NCBI RefSeq assembly: GCF_037076455.1
Contig: NZ_AP028679.1
Span: 1,689,501 to 1,753,500 of the forward strand
Direction: 5' to 3'
Source of the DNA: Desulfoferula mesophila
GTDB lineage: Bacteria; Desulfobacterota; Desulfarculia; Desulfarculales; Desulfarculaceae
Length of the DNA stretch: 64,000 nucleotides
Shown here: positions 31,085 to 35,123 of the stretch, piece after piece
How the letters are laid out: every line of letters starts with the position of its first letter
Position numbering within the stretch: the first letter of the stretch is position 1
The notes under the pieces: model-generated
Database searches by the model: none
Told to the model about the DNA's origin: nothing
The model's input: only the letters and a program-made list of their open reading frames with translations
Position numbers and translations under genes: made by a program

Positions 31085-32104
31085 TCAGTCGCGCCACATG
31101 GTTTTTATGTCCTTGGCAATCTCCTCGGGGCTCAAGAAGCACACCGTTTCGTCGTGCAGCTTTTCGAAGTAATTGATCTCGTCCACGCCCATGGGCGGTA
31201 TCTGCACCCGGCTGGCGATGCGCAACATGAAGGGTAGTCCGGCCTCGGGCTTCAACGAGGTGTGCAGGGCCATGTTGTAGGCGTTCACCCCCCGGGCCTC
31301 CAGGAAGCGAACCACCCGGCGGATGCCCTTGGCCAGGCCCAGGATCTGGGCCGGGCTGAACTCCATGAGCCCCTTGCCGCTGGGCGACAGGGCCATTAAA
31401 TCATAAATGGCTCGGGGCGCGAAAGGCGCCAGCCAAATCACCGGCCCCACCTGGCCCACCCAGCGGGTGCGCTCCGCCTTCTCGTGCTCCAGGTAGGCGC
31501 TCATCATGTCGCCCCCCTCGCGCTTGGCAAAGGCCTTGGCCCGGCGGATGAGGCGGCTCTGGAAGCGGGTGGGCTCGATGCCGGCCACGATCTGGAAGTG
31601 GGGGTGCACCACTCCGCCCCCGGCGGGCATCATGTAGTTCCAGTTCACCGCCGCGTAGCGGGCCTTGGGGGTCACCCGCTTAAAGGAGTCCACGGCCATC
31701 AAAAGGCCGTCGGCCAACTGGCGGGCGGTGAACTGGCTGGGCAATACGTGGTGCTCGTTGGTCAGGCGCAGCACCGCGTTGTGGGCCTCGTAGGGGAACA
31801 TGTTGGGAAAGCCCACCGCCTCGCCCCGGCGCAAGAGCCCCTCGGGCACCTCCTCGGGCAAAAAGCGCGAAACCATGGTTTCCACGTTGCCCGGGCAAAA
31901 GGGGCAGGTGCGGTCCTTGTCGCGCTCCAGGTACAGGGAGTGGTCCAGCTTGCCCAGCGAGCGCAGGCGAAAGCTCAGGATGCGGCTGCGGTCGTCGGTG
32001 AGGGGGTCGCGGCGGATCTCCACGTCCACCGTGGTGGGCTTCATGTCGTCGGCGGGGTTGAGGTAACCGGTGCGGTGATGGGTGATCTTGAACTTCAGCG
32101 GCAT
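31085..32104 (-). CDS. galactose-1-phosphate uridylyltransferase-like HIT-superfamily protein
   Basis: This 339-residue GalT-fold protein has a zinc-type CPFCPGN near the N-terminus. The active-site triad is GGGVVHPHFQ, where canonical GalT has HPHGQ; the nucleophilic His and the preceding HP are kept. No galactose genes are nearby. The gene sits between an acyl-CoA synthetase and a receiver protein, so it is more likely a nucleotidylyltransferase or phosphorylase with another substrate. The ATG at 32104 has AGGAG eight bases upstream. Confidence 0.78.
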   Translation of the reverse strand: MPLKFKITHHRTGYLNPADDMKPTTVDVEIRRDPLTDDRSRILSFRLRSLGKLDHSLYLERDKDRTCPFCPGNVETMVSRFLPEEVPEGLLRRGEAVGFPNMFPYEAHNAVLRLTNEHHVLPSQFTARQLADGLLMAVDSFKRVTPKARYAAVNWNYMMPAGGGVVHPHFQIVAGIEPTRFQSRLIRRAKAFAKREGGDMMSAYLEHEKAERTRWVGQVGPVIWLAPFAPRAIYDLMALSPSGKGLMEFSPAQILGLAKGIRRVVRFLEARGVNAYNMALHTSLKPEAGLPFMLRIASRVQIPPMGVDEINYFEKLHDETVCFLSPEEIAKDIKTMWRD

Positions 32105-32128: not shown

Positions 32129-32773
32129 TCAGCCTCCCAGTTCCCGGCGCACCAGCTCGAGCAGCTGGCTGGGCCGGAAGGGTTTGGCCAGGCGGGGGTA
32201 TCCAAAGCGAACCAGCTCTTGCATGAGTGAATTTTGAATGGAGTGGGTGCCGAAAAAACCGGAAATGAAGATCACCTTGATTTCCGGGTCCCGTTGGCGC
32301 AGGGCGCGAACCATCTCCACTCCGTCCATTATAGGCATTAGAATATCGCTGATTACCAGTTCCGGTCTGAAACTCATATGCAGGCGCAGGCCGGCCAGGC
32401 CGTCCGGAGCGGTGGCCACCTGGTGGCCCTCCATTATAAGCAAATCGCCCAAGTTGTCGGCCAGACAGATTTCGTCTTCCACGATCAGCACCCGGGGGCG
32501 TCCGGCGCGCGACCGGGCCGAGGTTTGCAGGAAGCTCCCCAACTCCTCGTCGCTGGTGGCGTCCAGGCGCTGTTTCAGGGCGTTGAGGCGGCGCTGGCCC
32601 TCTTCGGCGGCTCGGCGGTTTTCTTGGTGCAGGTCCGGGTGATAGACCTTGGAGAGCAGGCGATAGGCGTGGCGGATATAGCGAATCGCCGCCTCCGGGC
32701 CCAACTCGGCGGTGATTTGCCGGGCCTTTTCCAGCACCCCCAGATAGCGCAGATCCTGCTCCAGTTGGCTCAA
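32129..32773 (-). CDS. J-domain-like/response-regulator receiver fusion
   Basis: The protein is 214 residues. The N-terminal 75 residues look like a DnaJ J-domain: a helix, then RHAYRLLSKVYHPDLHQEN with HPD at 45-47, then a third helix. Residues about 93-214 are a complete receiver with E99/D100, the phospho-acceptor D143 (ELVISDILMP), the SGF segment and the conserved Lys in LAKPFRP. No output domain is present. The TTG start overlaps the ubiA stop as TTGA. It may connect phosphorelay input to an Hsp70 partner; that is inference. Confidence 0.8.
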   Translation of the reverse strand: MSQLEQDLRYLGVLEKARQITAELGPEAAIRYIRHAYRLLSKVYHPDLHQENRRAAEEGQRRLNALKQRLDATSDEELGSFLQTSARSRAGRPRVLIVEDEICLADNLGDLLIMEGHQVATAPDGLAGLRLHMSFRPELVISDILMPIMDGVEMVRALRQRDPEIKVIFISGFFGTHSIQNSLMQELVRFGYPRLAKPFRPSQLLELVRRELGG

Positions 32774-33645
32774 GCCGCGCCCCCCAGCCACAGGTCCAGG
32801 ATCAAAAACACCAGAAAGGCGATGGACACGAAACCGTTGACCGTGAAAAAGGCCATGGGAATGTTGGCCCGCTTCACCGCCACCAACGCTTGCTCCACCA
32901 CCAGGGCCAGGGCCACCACCCCGGATCCCAGCAAATAAATGTCGCCCAGGTTGAAAAGCGGGGCCAGGGCGAAGAAGCCCAGGATGGTCAGGGCGTGCAT
33001 CCCCCGGCTCACCCACAGGGCCCGCTCCAATCCCAGGCGGGCGGGCAGGGAGTGCAGGCATTGGGAGGTGTCGAATTCTATGTCCTGGCAGGCGTAGATG
33101 ACGTCGAAGCCCACCACCCACAGGGCGGCCGCCCCGGCCAGCACCGCGGCCCGCCAGTCCCAGGCCCCGGTGACCGCGATCCAGGCGCCCAAGGGGGCCA
33201 GGGCGGTGGCCAGGCCCAGCCAGAGGTGGCACAGCCAGGTGAAGCGCTTGGTGAAGCTGTAGCCCAAGACCCAGGCCAGGGCCACGGGCGAGAGTCTGAG
33301 GCACAGGGGGTTGAGCATGGCCGCGGCCAACACCAGCAACGCACAAGCCAACACCAGCCAGGCCCAGGCCAGGGCCGGGCTCACCCGGCCGGTGACCAGG
33401 GGGCGCATGGCGGTGCGGGGGTTGAGGGCGTCGTAGCGGCGGTCGGCGATGCGGTTCATGATCATGGCCGCGCTGCGCGCCGCCACCAGTGCCACCACCA
33501 CCCAGAAAAAGATGCCCACGGTGAGCGGGTGCTCCCGGGTGGCCAGCAGCAGGGCGCTCAGGGCAAAGGGAAACAAGAAGATGGTGTGGCTGAACTTGAC
33601 CAGGTCGCCGAAGTCCTTGAGCCGTCCCCCCGGATTCAGGGCCAT
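32770..33645 (-). CDS. UbiA-family prenyltransferase (menaquinone type)
   Basis: This 291-residue protein has eight to nine membrane helices and both Asp-rich motifs: NRIADRRYDALNPRT and a second DxxxD as DIEFDTSQ. It attaches a polyprenyl chain to an aromatic ring in the membrane. It is located directly after a UbiD-type decarboxylase, so the pair most likely acts late in menaquinone biosynthesis, in the futalosine route common in this phylum. That pathway assignment is inference. The ATG is at 33645, five bases after the ubiD stop. Confidence 0.9.
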   Translation of the reverse strand: MALNPGGRLKDFGDLVKFSHTIFLFPFALSALLLATREHPLTVGIFFWVVVALVAARSAAMIMNRIADRRYDALNPRTAMRPLVTGRVSPALAWAWLVLACALLVLAAAMLNPLCLRLSPVALAWVLGYSFTKRFTWLCHLWLGLATALAPLGAWIAVTGAWDWRAAVLAGAAALWVVGFDVIYACQDIEFDTSQCLHSLPARLGLERALWVSRGMHALTILGFFALAPLFNLGDIYLLGSGVVALALVVEQALVAVKRANIPMAFFTVNGFVSIAFLVFLILDLWLGGAA

Positions 33646-33650
33646 GGCGC

Positions 33651-35123
33651 CTACTTCTCCGGGGTGACCAGGCCCCAGGCCTTGAGCCGGGCCAGGGCCG
33701 CCCGCTCCACCTCGGGGTCCATCGCGATGCGCTCCGGCCAGGGGCGCTCGAAGCCCTCGCCGGGTAGCTTCTTGGTGCCGTCGATGCCCATCTTGCTGTG
33801 CAGACAGGGGAGCTGGGCCGCGTGATCCAGCACGTCGGCCGGTCCCTTGCTGAACAGGATGTCCCGCTGGGGGTCGATGTGGTTTAGGGCCTCCCACCAG
33901 GCGCGCTGGGGGTCTTGCACGTCCACGTCGGCGTCCACGATCACCAGGATCTTGGCGAACATCATCTGTCCCTGGCCCCACAGGGCGTTCATCACCTTGT
34001 AGGCCTGGCCGGGGTGGTCTTTCTTGATGGACACGAACACCAGGTTGTGGAACACCCCCTCGGCGGGCATGTGGTAGTCCACCACCTCGGGCAGCACCGT
34101 CTGCAACAAGGGCAGGAAGATGCGCTCGGTGGCCATGCCCAAGTAATAGTCCTCCATGGGCGGTATTCCCACGATGGTGGTGGGGTAGAGATAGTCCTTG
34201 CGATGGGTGACGGCGGTGACGTGCAGCACCGGGTAGTCGTCGGCCAGGGAGTAATAGCCGGTGTGGTCGCCAAAGGGGCCCTCGACCCGCAGGGGCTCGG
34301 CCGGGTCCACGTAGCCTTCGATGATCACCTCGGCCTCGGCCGGGACCAACAGCTCGCTGGTGACCGCCTGGACCAGCTCCACCGGCCGGCGCAGCAAAAA
34401 GCCGCTGAACATGTACTCGGGCAGGTTTTCGGGTAGGGGGGCGCAGGCCGCGTAGACCGAGGCGGGCGCCCCGCCCAGGGCCACGGCCACCGGCAGCTTC
34501 TGCCCCAGCTCCTTGGCCCGGCGATAGTGGGAGGCCCCGCCCTTGTGGCGGTGCCAGTGCATGCCCGTGGTGTGCTCGTCGAACCGCTGCAAGCGGTACA
34601 TGCCCACGTTGTGTTTGCCGGTGTCCGGGTCGGCGGTGATCACCTGGGGCAGGGTGATGAAGGGCCCGGCGTCCTGGGGCCAGCAGGTGAGGATGGGCAA
34701 GAGGTCCAAAGAAGCCTGCTCGCCGCGCAGCACCACCTCCTGGCAAGGGGCGCTCTTCACCTTCTGGGGGGCAAAGGCCTTGAGCTCCTTGAGCTTGGGC
34801 AACACGCTGAGTAGCTTGGACCACAGGCCGCCCGAGGGCAGCTCCAGCTCCAACAGCCCCCGCAGGCGACCGGCCACCTCGTCCAGGTGCTCCACCCCCA
34901 GGGCCAGGGCCATGCGCTGGGGCGAGCCGAAGAGGTTGATAGCCAGGGGGCAGGAGACGCCCTTGACCTTTTCGAACATCAGGGCCGGGCCGCCGGCCTT
35001 CATCACCGCGTCGCTCAGGGCGGTGATCTCCAGGAAGGGGTCCACCTCCTCGGAGACGCGTTTCAGCCAGCCCCGGCTCTCCAGGGCCTTGACGAATTGT
35101 CGCATGTTAAGGGGGGCCTGCAT
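33651..35123 (-). CDS. UbiD-family prenylated-FMN decarboxylase (menaquinone biosynthesis type)
   Basis: This 490-residue UbiD-fold enzyme includes the glycosyl-like substrate loop NVGMYRLQRFDEHTTGMHW and the metal/prFMN region with the E-R-E triad (PFGDHTGYYS and PAEAEVIIEG). It decarboxylates an aromatic acid using prenylated FMN. It starts at ATG 35123 with GGAG upstream and is followed immediately by ubiA. Close relatives are annotated as menaquinone biosynthesis decarboxylases. The flavin prenyltransferase UbiX is not in this window. Confidence 0.9.
   Translation of the reverse strand: MQAPLNMRQFVKALESRGWLKRVSEEVDPFLEITALSDAVMKAGGPALMFEKVKGVSCPLAINLFGSPQRMALALGVEHLDEVAGRLRGLLELELPSGGLWSKLLSVLPKLKELKAFAPQKVKSAPCQEVVLRGEQASLDLLPILTCWPQDAGPFITLPQVITADPDTGKHNVGMYRLQRFDEHTTGMHWHRHKGGASHYRRAKELGQKLPVAVALGGAPASVYAACAPLPENLPEYMFSGFLLRRPVELVQAVTSELLVPAEAEVIIEGYVDPAEPLRVEGPFGDHTGYYSLADDYPVLHVTAVTHRKDYLYPTTIVGIPPMEDYYLGMATERIFLPLLQTVLPEVVDYHMPAEGVFHNLVFVSIKKDHPGQAYKVMNALWGQGQMMFAKILVIVDADVDVQDPQRAWWEALNHIDPQRDILFSKGPADVLDHAAQLPCLHSKMGIDGTKKLPGEGFERPWPERIAMDPEVERAALARLKAWGLVTPEK

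Follow-up and report, generated by a model that had tools for sequence, protein, structure and literature searches.

A J-domain joined to a response-regulator receiver in Desulfobacterota: a candidate phosphorylation-gated Hsp70 co-chaperone

Background

What would a phospho-receiver do when it is joined to a J-domain? The question is raised by a gene of Desulfoferula mesophila that lies in the stretch of 64,000 nucleotides analyzed here (the window), and that we call J-REC. Where Hsp70 acts is a choice made by J-domain proteins, and for bacteria it is mostly regarded as fixed by client-binding domains; with a receiver in such a protein, the choice would depend on a phosphate signal.

In this work we characterized J-REC and its relatives using profile searches, structure prediction, residue conservation and the analysis of gene neighbourhoods. 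From these analyses we conclude that J-REC consists of an HPD-bearing J-domain homologue, a short linker and an intact receiver, and that it contains no further domain. The reading that we favour, and that we regard as fairly probable, is that J-REC is an orphan class C J-domain co-chaperone in which the recruitment of DnaK is gated by phosphorylation of the receiver.

Results and discussion

Layout of the gene

An earlier note on this DNA had described the gene without giving its strand; its coordinates were right, and the gene lies on the minus strand, running from 32773 to 32129, the reading frame on the plus strand at these positions being broken by stops. Conservation was assessed in an alignment of 36 full-length proteins, which remained once truncated copies had been removed; 19 of them are Desulfarculaceae proteins, and the other 17 belong to five further family-level groups. 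In 19/19 Desulfarculaceae sequences the position of the start holds ATG, GTG or TTG. The features of J-REC are the following.

32129..32773, minus strand: J-REC, the J-domain/receiver gene, 214 aa, TTG start (translation)
32744..32770, minus strand: predicted extra N-terminal helix, residues 2-10, ahead of the J-domain proper (AlphaFold)
32501..32734, minus strand: J-domain, residues 14-91 (14-24, 26-43, 53-72 and 75-91; Pfam, hhalign, AlphaFold, VIA-align)
32633..32641, minus strand: HPD motif, residues 45-47 (sequence; invariant in 36/36)
32138..32494, minus strand: receiver (REC), residues 94-212 (Pfam PF00072, AlphaFold strands and helices, Foldseek)
32345..32347, minus strand: predicted phospho-acceptor Asp, D143 (invariant in 36/36)
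32249..32260, minus strand: GFFG motif, residues 172-175, right after the switch Ser S171 (conservation, 36 members)

The HPD that had been placed at residues 45-47 is found at the same residues of the translation (window 32641-32633), and the presence of a J-domain and a receiver in one gene, also claimed earlier, was confirmed by the 214-aa translation, Pfam and hhalign. Beyond DnaJ and Response_reg, no further domain was found in J-REC with Pfam.

The N-terminus is a J-domain homologue

The Pfam DnaJ family matches residues 26-68 of J-REC with 23.8 bits (E 4.9e-5, profile 10-51 of 63), a score that lies under the Pfam cut-off of 27.8 bits; the same family is matched at E <= 1 by 19/19 members scanned, with a best E of 9.9e-6. 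Given that the single-sequence score is weak, homologues were gathered and the N-terminus of the family was compared with canonical J-domains by hhalign, which gave E 6.9e-11 over residues 16-89 and, in a repeat, E 1.7e-12 over residues 26-71. When residues 43-48, which form the HPD loop, were masked, the match to J-domains still reached E 4e-6, and the controls stayed flat, with E 0.46 for the reversed alignment, 0.05 for the receiver and 0.03-0.9 for 20 column-shuffles. Therefore, more than the HPD letters underlies the homology, and these profile comparisons, well beyond chance, confirm the N-terminus as a J-domain homologue, in support of the J-domain that had been proposed from the sequence.

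The structure of the N-terminus was predicted with AlphaFold from an alignment of 29 sequences (mean pLDDT 84.8, pTM 0.73), and the predicted helices span residues 2-10, 14-24, 26-43, 53-72 and 75-91. According to the profile alignment, 14-24 corresponds to J helix I, 26-43 to helix II and 53-72 to helix III, 75-91 is a helix IV-like segment that would run towards the receiver, and 2-10 is an extra helix; the HPD sits in the loop between the predicted helices 26-43 and 53-72. The fold of the N-terminus had been singled out earlier as a check on the J-domain assignment, and a J-type order of helices is what AlphaFold predicts. Titles identify five of the first eight VIA-align rows as J-domains, including 5nro_B (the DnaJ J-domain bound to DnaK); two are auxilin, which has a J-domain, and one is a chain of the radial-spoke complex, which presumably contains an Hsp40. 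The top Z values are 4.8-6.0, unrelated helical proteins appear from 4.8, and Z in this range can arise by chance between helical folds; because of this overlap the fold match alone is not decisive. Foldseek with the N-terminal model gave no match at E <= 0.001. In the full-length AlphaFold model (pTM 0.56; five models, with mean pLDDT from 80.3 to 50.0) the orientation of the J-domain relative to the receiver is poorly predicted.

Conservation of the HPD loop and of the DnaK-facing surface

The residues H45, P46 and D47 are unchanged in 36/36 proteins; conservation of the HPD in homologues was the second check that had been set for the J-domain, and its outcome speaks for the J-domain. Of the first 92 positions just 11 are invariant, and no run of four invariant positions occurs other than YHPD (n=36). 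The identity between the Desulfarculaceae sequences and the rest is 35-49%, and both halves of the protein are about equally constrained (mean identity 41% and 44%).

In DnaJ, the basic residues R22, K26, R27, K48 and K51 are described as positioning the J-domain on DnaK (PMC8215388). When DnaJ residues were mapped onto J-REC by a fixed offset from the HPD, with one residue more in helix III, the equivalent of R22 was R34, a position with R or K in 36/36 proteins, and the equivalent of K26 was R38, with R in 32 and H in 4 of the 36. At the equivalent of K48, R or K is present in 20/36. Other positions are replaced: that of R27 is L39 in 35/36 (T in one), that of K51 is N64 in 36/36, and that of F47 is Q60 in 35/36. 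Since the HPD loop is intact and some of the DnaK-facing residues are kept, the N-terminus appears to be a divergent J-domain with part of the docking surface.

These replacements, together with the sub-threshold Pfam DnaJ score, are what would be expected if the N-terminus were a former J-domain that now serves as a helical adaptor or dimerisation domain without Hsp70 function; we consider this very unlikely, given that the HPD persists in all 36 members down to about 35% overall identity and that R34 and R38 are largely kept, and that, in the J-proteins whose interaction with Hsp70 is described as impaired, the HPD is altered (PMC13254874).

The genome of the window encodes one full-length Hsp70 (DnaK), so that a partner for J-REC is available. 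Two weaker Hsp70 matches in this genome cover about 100 profile positions each, one of them being the MreB-like gene of the window, and two canonical J-domain genes are present besides J-REC.

The receiver keeps the residues of the phosphorylation switch

Residues 95-208 match Pfam Response_reg (PF00072) with 70.2 bits over profile positions 1-110 of 111, in agreement with the complete receiver that the earlier note had recognized; Response_reg, like DnaJ, is matched at E <= 1 by 19/19 members scanned. In the full-length AlphaFold model the C-terminal half is predicted to adopt a receiver fold, and with this model Foldseek returned only response-regulator receivers among the 50 matches listed. 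D100, D143 and K197 are each present in 36/36 proteins, and position 171 is S in 35/36 and T in one; the acid pocket, the phospho-Asp, the Ser/Thr switch and the Lys are all kept. In the GFFG loop, G172, F173 and G175 are invariant (36/36) and F174 is found in 34/36, with L in two; this loop may be a surface that contacts the J-domain or a partner protein.

No HTH output family is present among the listed Pfam matches of J-REC and the 19 members scanned, and no DNA-binding or enzymatic output domain was found in J-REC with Pfam. This result bears on the possibility that information flows in the opposite direction, with the binding of DnaK altering the phosphorylation or the stability of the receiver, so that J-REC would inform a two-component pathway about free DnaK and hence about folding stress. 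In heat-shock control, feedback by free DnaK is well established, and the output domain of most response regulators follows the receiver, whereas in J-REC the J-domain is N-terminal; both facts would suit a flow of this kind. However, given that J-REC has no output domain, such a flow would need a further partner of the receiver, and we think it improbable.

Distribution of the architecture

Strong matches to the N-terminus of J-REC were found in 19 of the 63 genomes of the class, all of them within the 20 genomes of Desulfarculaceae (19/20; none in G059), and no strong match was found in the other 43 genomes of the class (best E 0.002). The 19 aligned Desulfarculaceae sequences come from 18 genomes, since G058 gives two; before the counts were made, L022, with an open frame of 86 aa, and an additional partial copy in G051 were left out. 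The draft genome G058 holds two distinct copies of J-REC (L014 and L033), which may have arisen by duplication or may come from a mixed bin (contamination given as 4%).

When 395 genomes of the phylum were searched with a profile, matches at E <= 1e-19 were obtained in 9 Desulfarculaceae genomes and in 10 others. In a deeper search of two further classes, matches were obtained in 13/85 and 2/5 genomes, some of which are shared with the phylum-wide search. The 36 full-length proteins span six family-level groups of one phylum, Desulfobacterota. With the same profile, which recovers members in other classes of this phylum, no member was found in samples of 299 genomes from the phylum of Cocleimonas flava, 188 from that of a Bradymonadaceae genome and 149 from that of a Holophagaceae genome. 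A distribution over one phylum, with no member in the samples of three others, fits the earlier description of the architecture as rare. In the phylogenetic tree the Desulfarculaceae sequences form one group (100/100), and the members from outside are largely unresolved, on long branches and with unsettled bootstrap values.

Several candidates were rejected. L185, the lone match among the genomes sampled from the phylum of a Holophagaceae genome, is a canonical DnaJ. In a contig search with 12 strong loci (L034-L045), the 68 loci from L046 on match only or mainly the receiver region, as judged from the match table except for L078 and L088; these two, from Butyrivibrio, seemed to match the whole query and are receivers of longer kinase-like proteins without an HPD. 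Weak N-terminal matches (E 1e-3 to 1e-6) are present in other families of the phylum, and none of 11 such loci (L133-L143) has a full-length match to the J-REC family. Among them, L138, L140 and L143 are stand-alone short J-domain proteins of about 100-120 aa with an HPD, from the same phylum; they were rejected as members, being ordinary J-domains or J-only proteins.

Kinase and signalling genes near J-REC

In the genome of the window no HATPase_c gene is closer to J-REC than about 29 kb. In some relatives, kinase genes are nearby. For instance, in Desulfocarbo indianensis (L162) a PAS-HisKA-HATPase kinase (L162:3388-5340) is located 174 nt downstream of J-REC on the same strand, and in three genomes of one genus (L186-L188) a REC-PAS-HATPase-REC hybrid kinase is placed tail-to-tail with J-REC, 16-20 nt away; the domains of this kinase were assigned by Pfam in L187 (L187:4416-6392) and in the other two by the 92.7-95.7% identity among the three. 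In L191 a hybrid kinase is encoded two genes downstream of J-REC and starts slightly more than 1 kb past the stop of J-REC. Overall, at least 5 of the 36 loci have a kinase within 1 kb, when the one just beyond this distance in L191 is included. In the latter locus (L191:1846-3968) the gene of a DUF7793 protein, downstream of J-REC, overlaps by 4 nt that of the HAMP-PAS-HisKA-HATPase-REC hybrid kinase. In a different locus (L150:3913-5412), Pfam identifies a CheX-CheX-FliN protein, in which a FliN C-terminal domain comes after two CheX stretches, encoded directly downstream of J-REC, and a homologue 65% identical to it occupies the same place by J-REC in L151 (L151:1-1507).

The adjacency of kinases or other signalling genes in several loci can be explained in another way, in which the J-domain works all the time and the receiver serves for docking, leading DnaK to a single client that could be, for instance, a signalling complex or a kinase; any phosphorylation would then alter which partner is bound and not the J-domain. 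Class C J-proteins are described as commonly using an extra domain for targeting, and DjlA as acting on the Rcs phosphorelay through DnaK (PMC8215388; PMC11709261), and both observations are in line with this explanation. Nevertheless, a pure docking module is expected to lose some of the residues of the phosphorylation site, and D100, D143 and K197, as well as a Ser or Thr at position 171, are kept in 36/36 proteins; we therefore judge targeting without gating to be rather unlikely, though less so than the other alternatives.

A possible mechanism for J-REC

From the architecture of the protein and from the kinases near J-REC in some relatives, we infer that the recruitment of Hsp70 is under phospho-control. 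In the gated co-chaperone that we favour, a histidine kinase encoded elsewhere would phosphorylate D143, and the switch face of the receiver (the SGFFG loop after S171, and K197) would then contact the J-domain, or else a partner protein, differently. This change could expose or position both the HPD loop and helix II with its basic residues (R34, R38, K42), the J-domain would dock on ATP-bound DnaK and trigger ATP hydrolysis, and DnaK would close on a protein held by the receiver of J-REC; the phosphate might either activate or release the J-domain. Both the stimulation of DnaK and its phospho-control are thus expected properties, which we infer for J-REC. J-REC, for whose 214 aa Pfam gives DnaJ and Response_reg, has neither a G/F region nor a zinc finger nor a client-binding beta-sandwich; therefore, it is most likely the receiver that supplies the targeting.

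In its general form, the proposal is that a two-component system plugs directly into Hsp70, with phosphorylation of the receiver switching the J-domain and so sending DnaK to a chosen protein, in several lineages of one phylum; in our estimation the chances of this are evenly balanced. If it is true, the recruitment of Hsp70 joins the known outputs of response regulators, and chaperone action would be controlled by a signal after translation and without transcription. The join is preserved in many related bacteria, and J-REC may let the cell switch chaperone help on and off in response to a signal. With its 214 aa the protein is small, and it has two well-understood active sites, predicted at H45 and D143.

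Relation to known systems

J-REC belongs with the class C J-proteins and is not a new category: as in DjlA, HscB and auxilin, an HPD-bearing J-domain is joined to an unrelated domain. It differs from them in that the partner is a phospho-receiver, in the extra N-terminal helix, and in the replacement of the equivalents of DnaJ R27, F47 and K51. Unlike the class A and B proteins (DnaJ, CbpA), it lacks the G/F region and the C-terminal substrate-binding domains.

RssB and CpdR are adaptors in ClpXP proteolysis, and among the NCBIfam rows for the receiver of J-REC they rank second and third, far under the cut-offs. They resemble J-REC in that a receiver likely hands a protein to an ATP-driven machine; in contrast, the machine of J-REC would be Hsp70 and not a protease, and its effector domain precedes the receiver.

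Two other systems come close to parts of this arrangement. CsdK1 and CsdK2 of Myxococcus xanthus are described as PilZ-DnaK chaperones (PMC10313047), in which, as in J-REC, a bacterial signal-receiving domain is fused to part of the Hsp70 machinery; from the same description, they use c-di-GMP and not phosphorylation, and the fusion is to Hsp70 itself and not to a J-domain. DjlA and Rcs, like J-REC in the reading that we favour, tie a J-domain protein to a phosphorelay through DnaK, but they are two systems that meet in trans, with no receiver in DjlA as far as that account describes it (PMC11709261). At the level of titles and abstract openings, and outside surveys of J-domain partners, we found no J-domain/receiver fusion in the literature; an earlier listing of the architecture is quite possible.

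Menaquinone genes beside J-REC in Desulfarculaceae

In the window, J-REC is flanked by the following genes.

32770..33645, minus strand: ubiA-like prenyltransferase, directly upstream of J-REC (Pfam UbiA 169.9 bits)
33651..35123, minus strand: UbiD-family menaquinone decarboxylase, upstream of ubiA (TIGR03701 mena_SCO4490)
31085-32104, minus strand: GalT-like protein just downstream of J-REC (sub-threshold matches)

The ubiA-like gene scores 281 bits with TIGR01475 (cut-off 180.8), and the UbiD-family gene 629.1 bits with TIGR03701 (cut-off 495.9). The TGA stop of ubiA and the TTG start of J-REC overlap by 4 nt, as expected from the coupling of both genes that had been noticed earlier. A ubiA gene lies directly upstream of J-REC in 19/19 Desulfarculaceae sequences, with an overlap in 13 and a spacing of -8 to +63 nt. 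This constant position would suit a role for J-REC as a factor of menaquinone biosynthesis that chaperones or regulates UbiA or UbiD. However, no UbiA or UbiD match was found near any of the 10 loci tested outside Desulfarculaceae, and therefore menaquinone is not the general function of J-REC and we give this role hardly any credence; the tie to a menaquinone-type ubiA that the earlier note had pointed out is specific to the lineage.

Downstream of J-REC, most Desulfarculaceae loci carry GalT-like, acyl-CoA-ligase-like, divIVA and DUF167-like genes, where the names acyl-CoA-ligase-like and DUF167-like were read from the sequences and are not Pfam calls. No match to the GalT-like, ligase-like, divIVA or DUF167-like proteins was found near the 10 outside members tested, which indicates that the operon is a local arrangement. 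The GalT-like protein, conserved in most Desulfarculaceae loci, matches DUF4931_N with 16.4 bits and PRK11720 with 17.7 bits, both sub-threshold, and probably represents an unnamed nucleotidyltransferase family.
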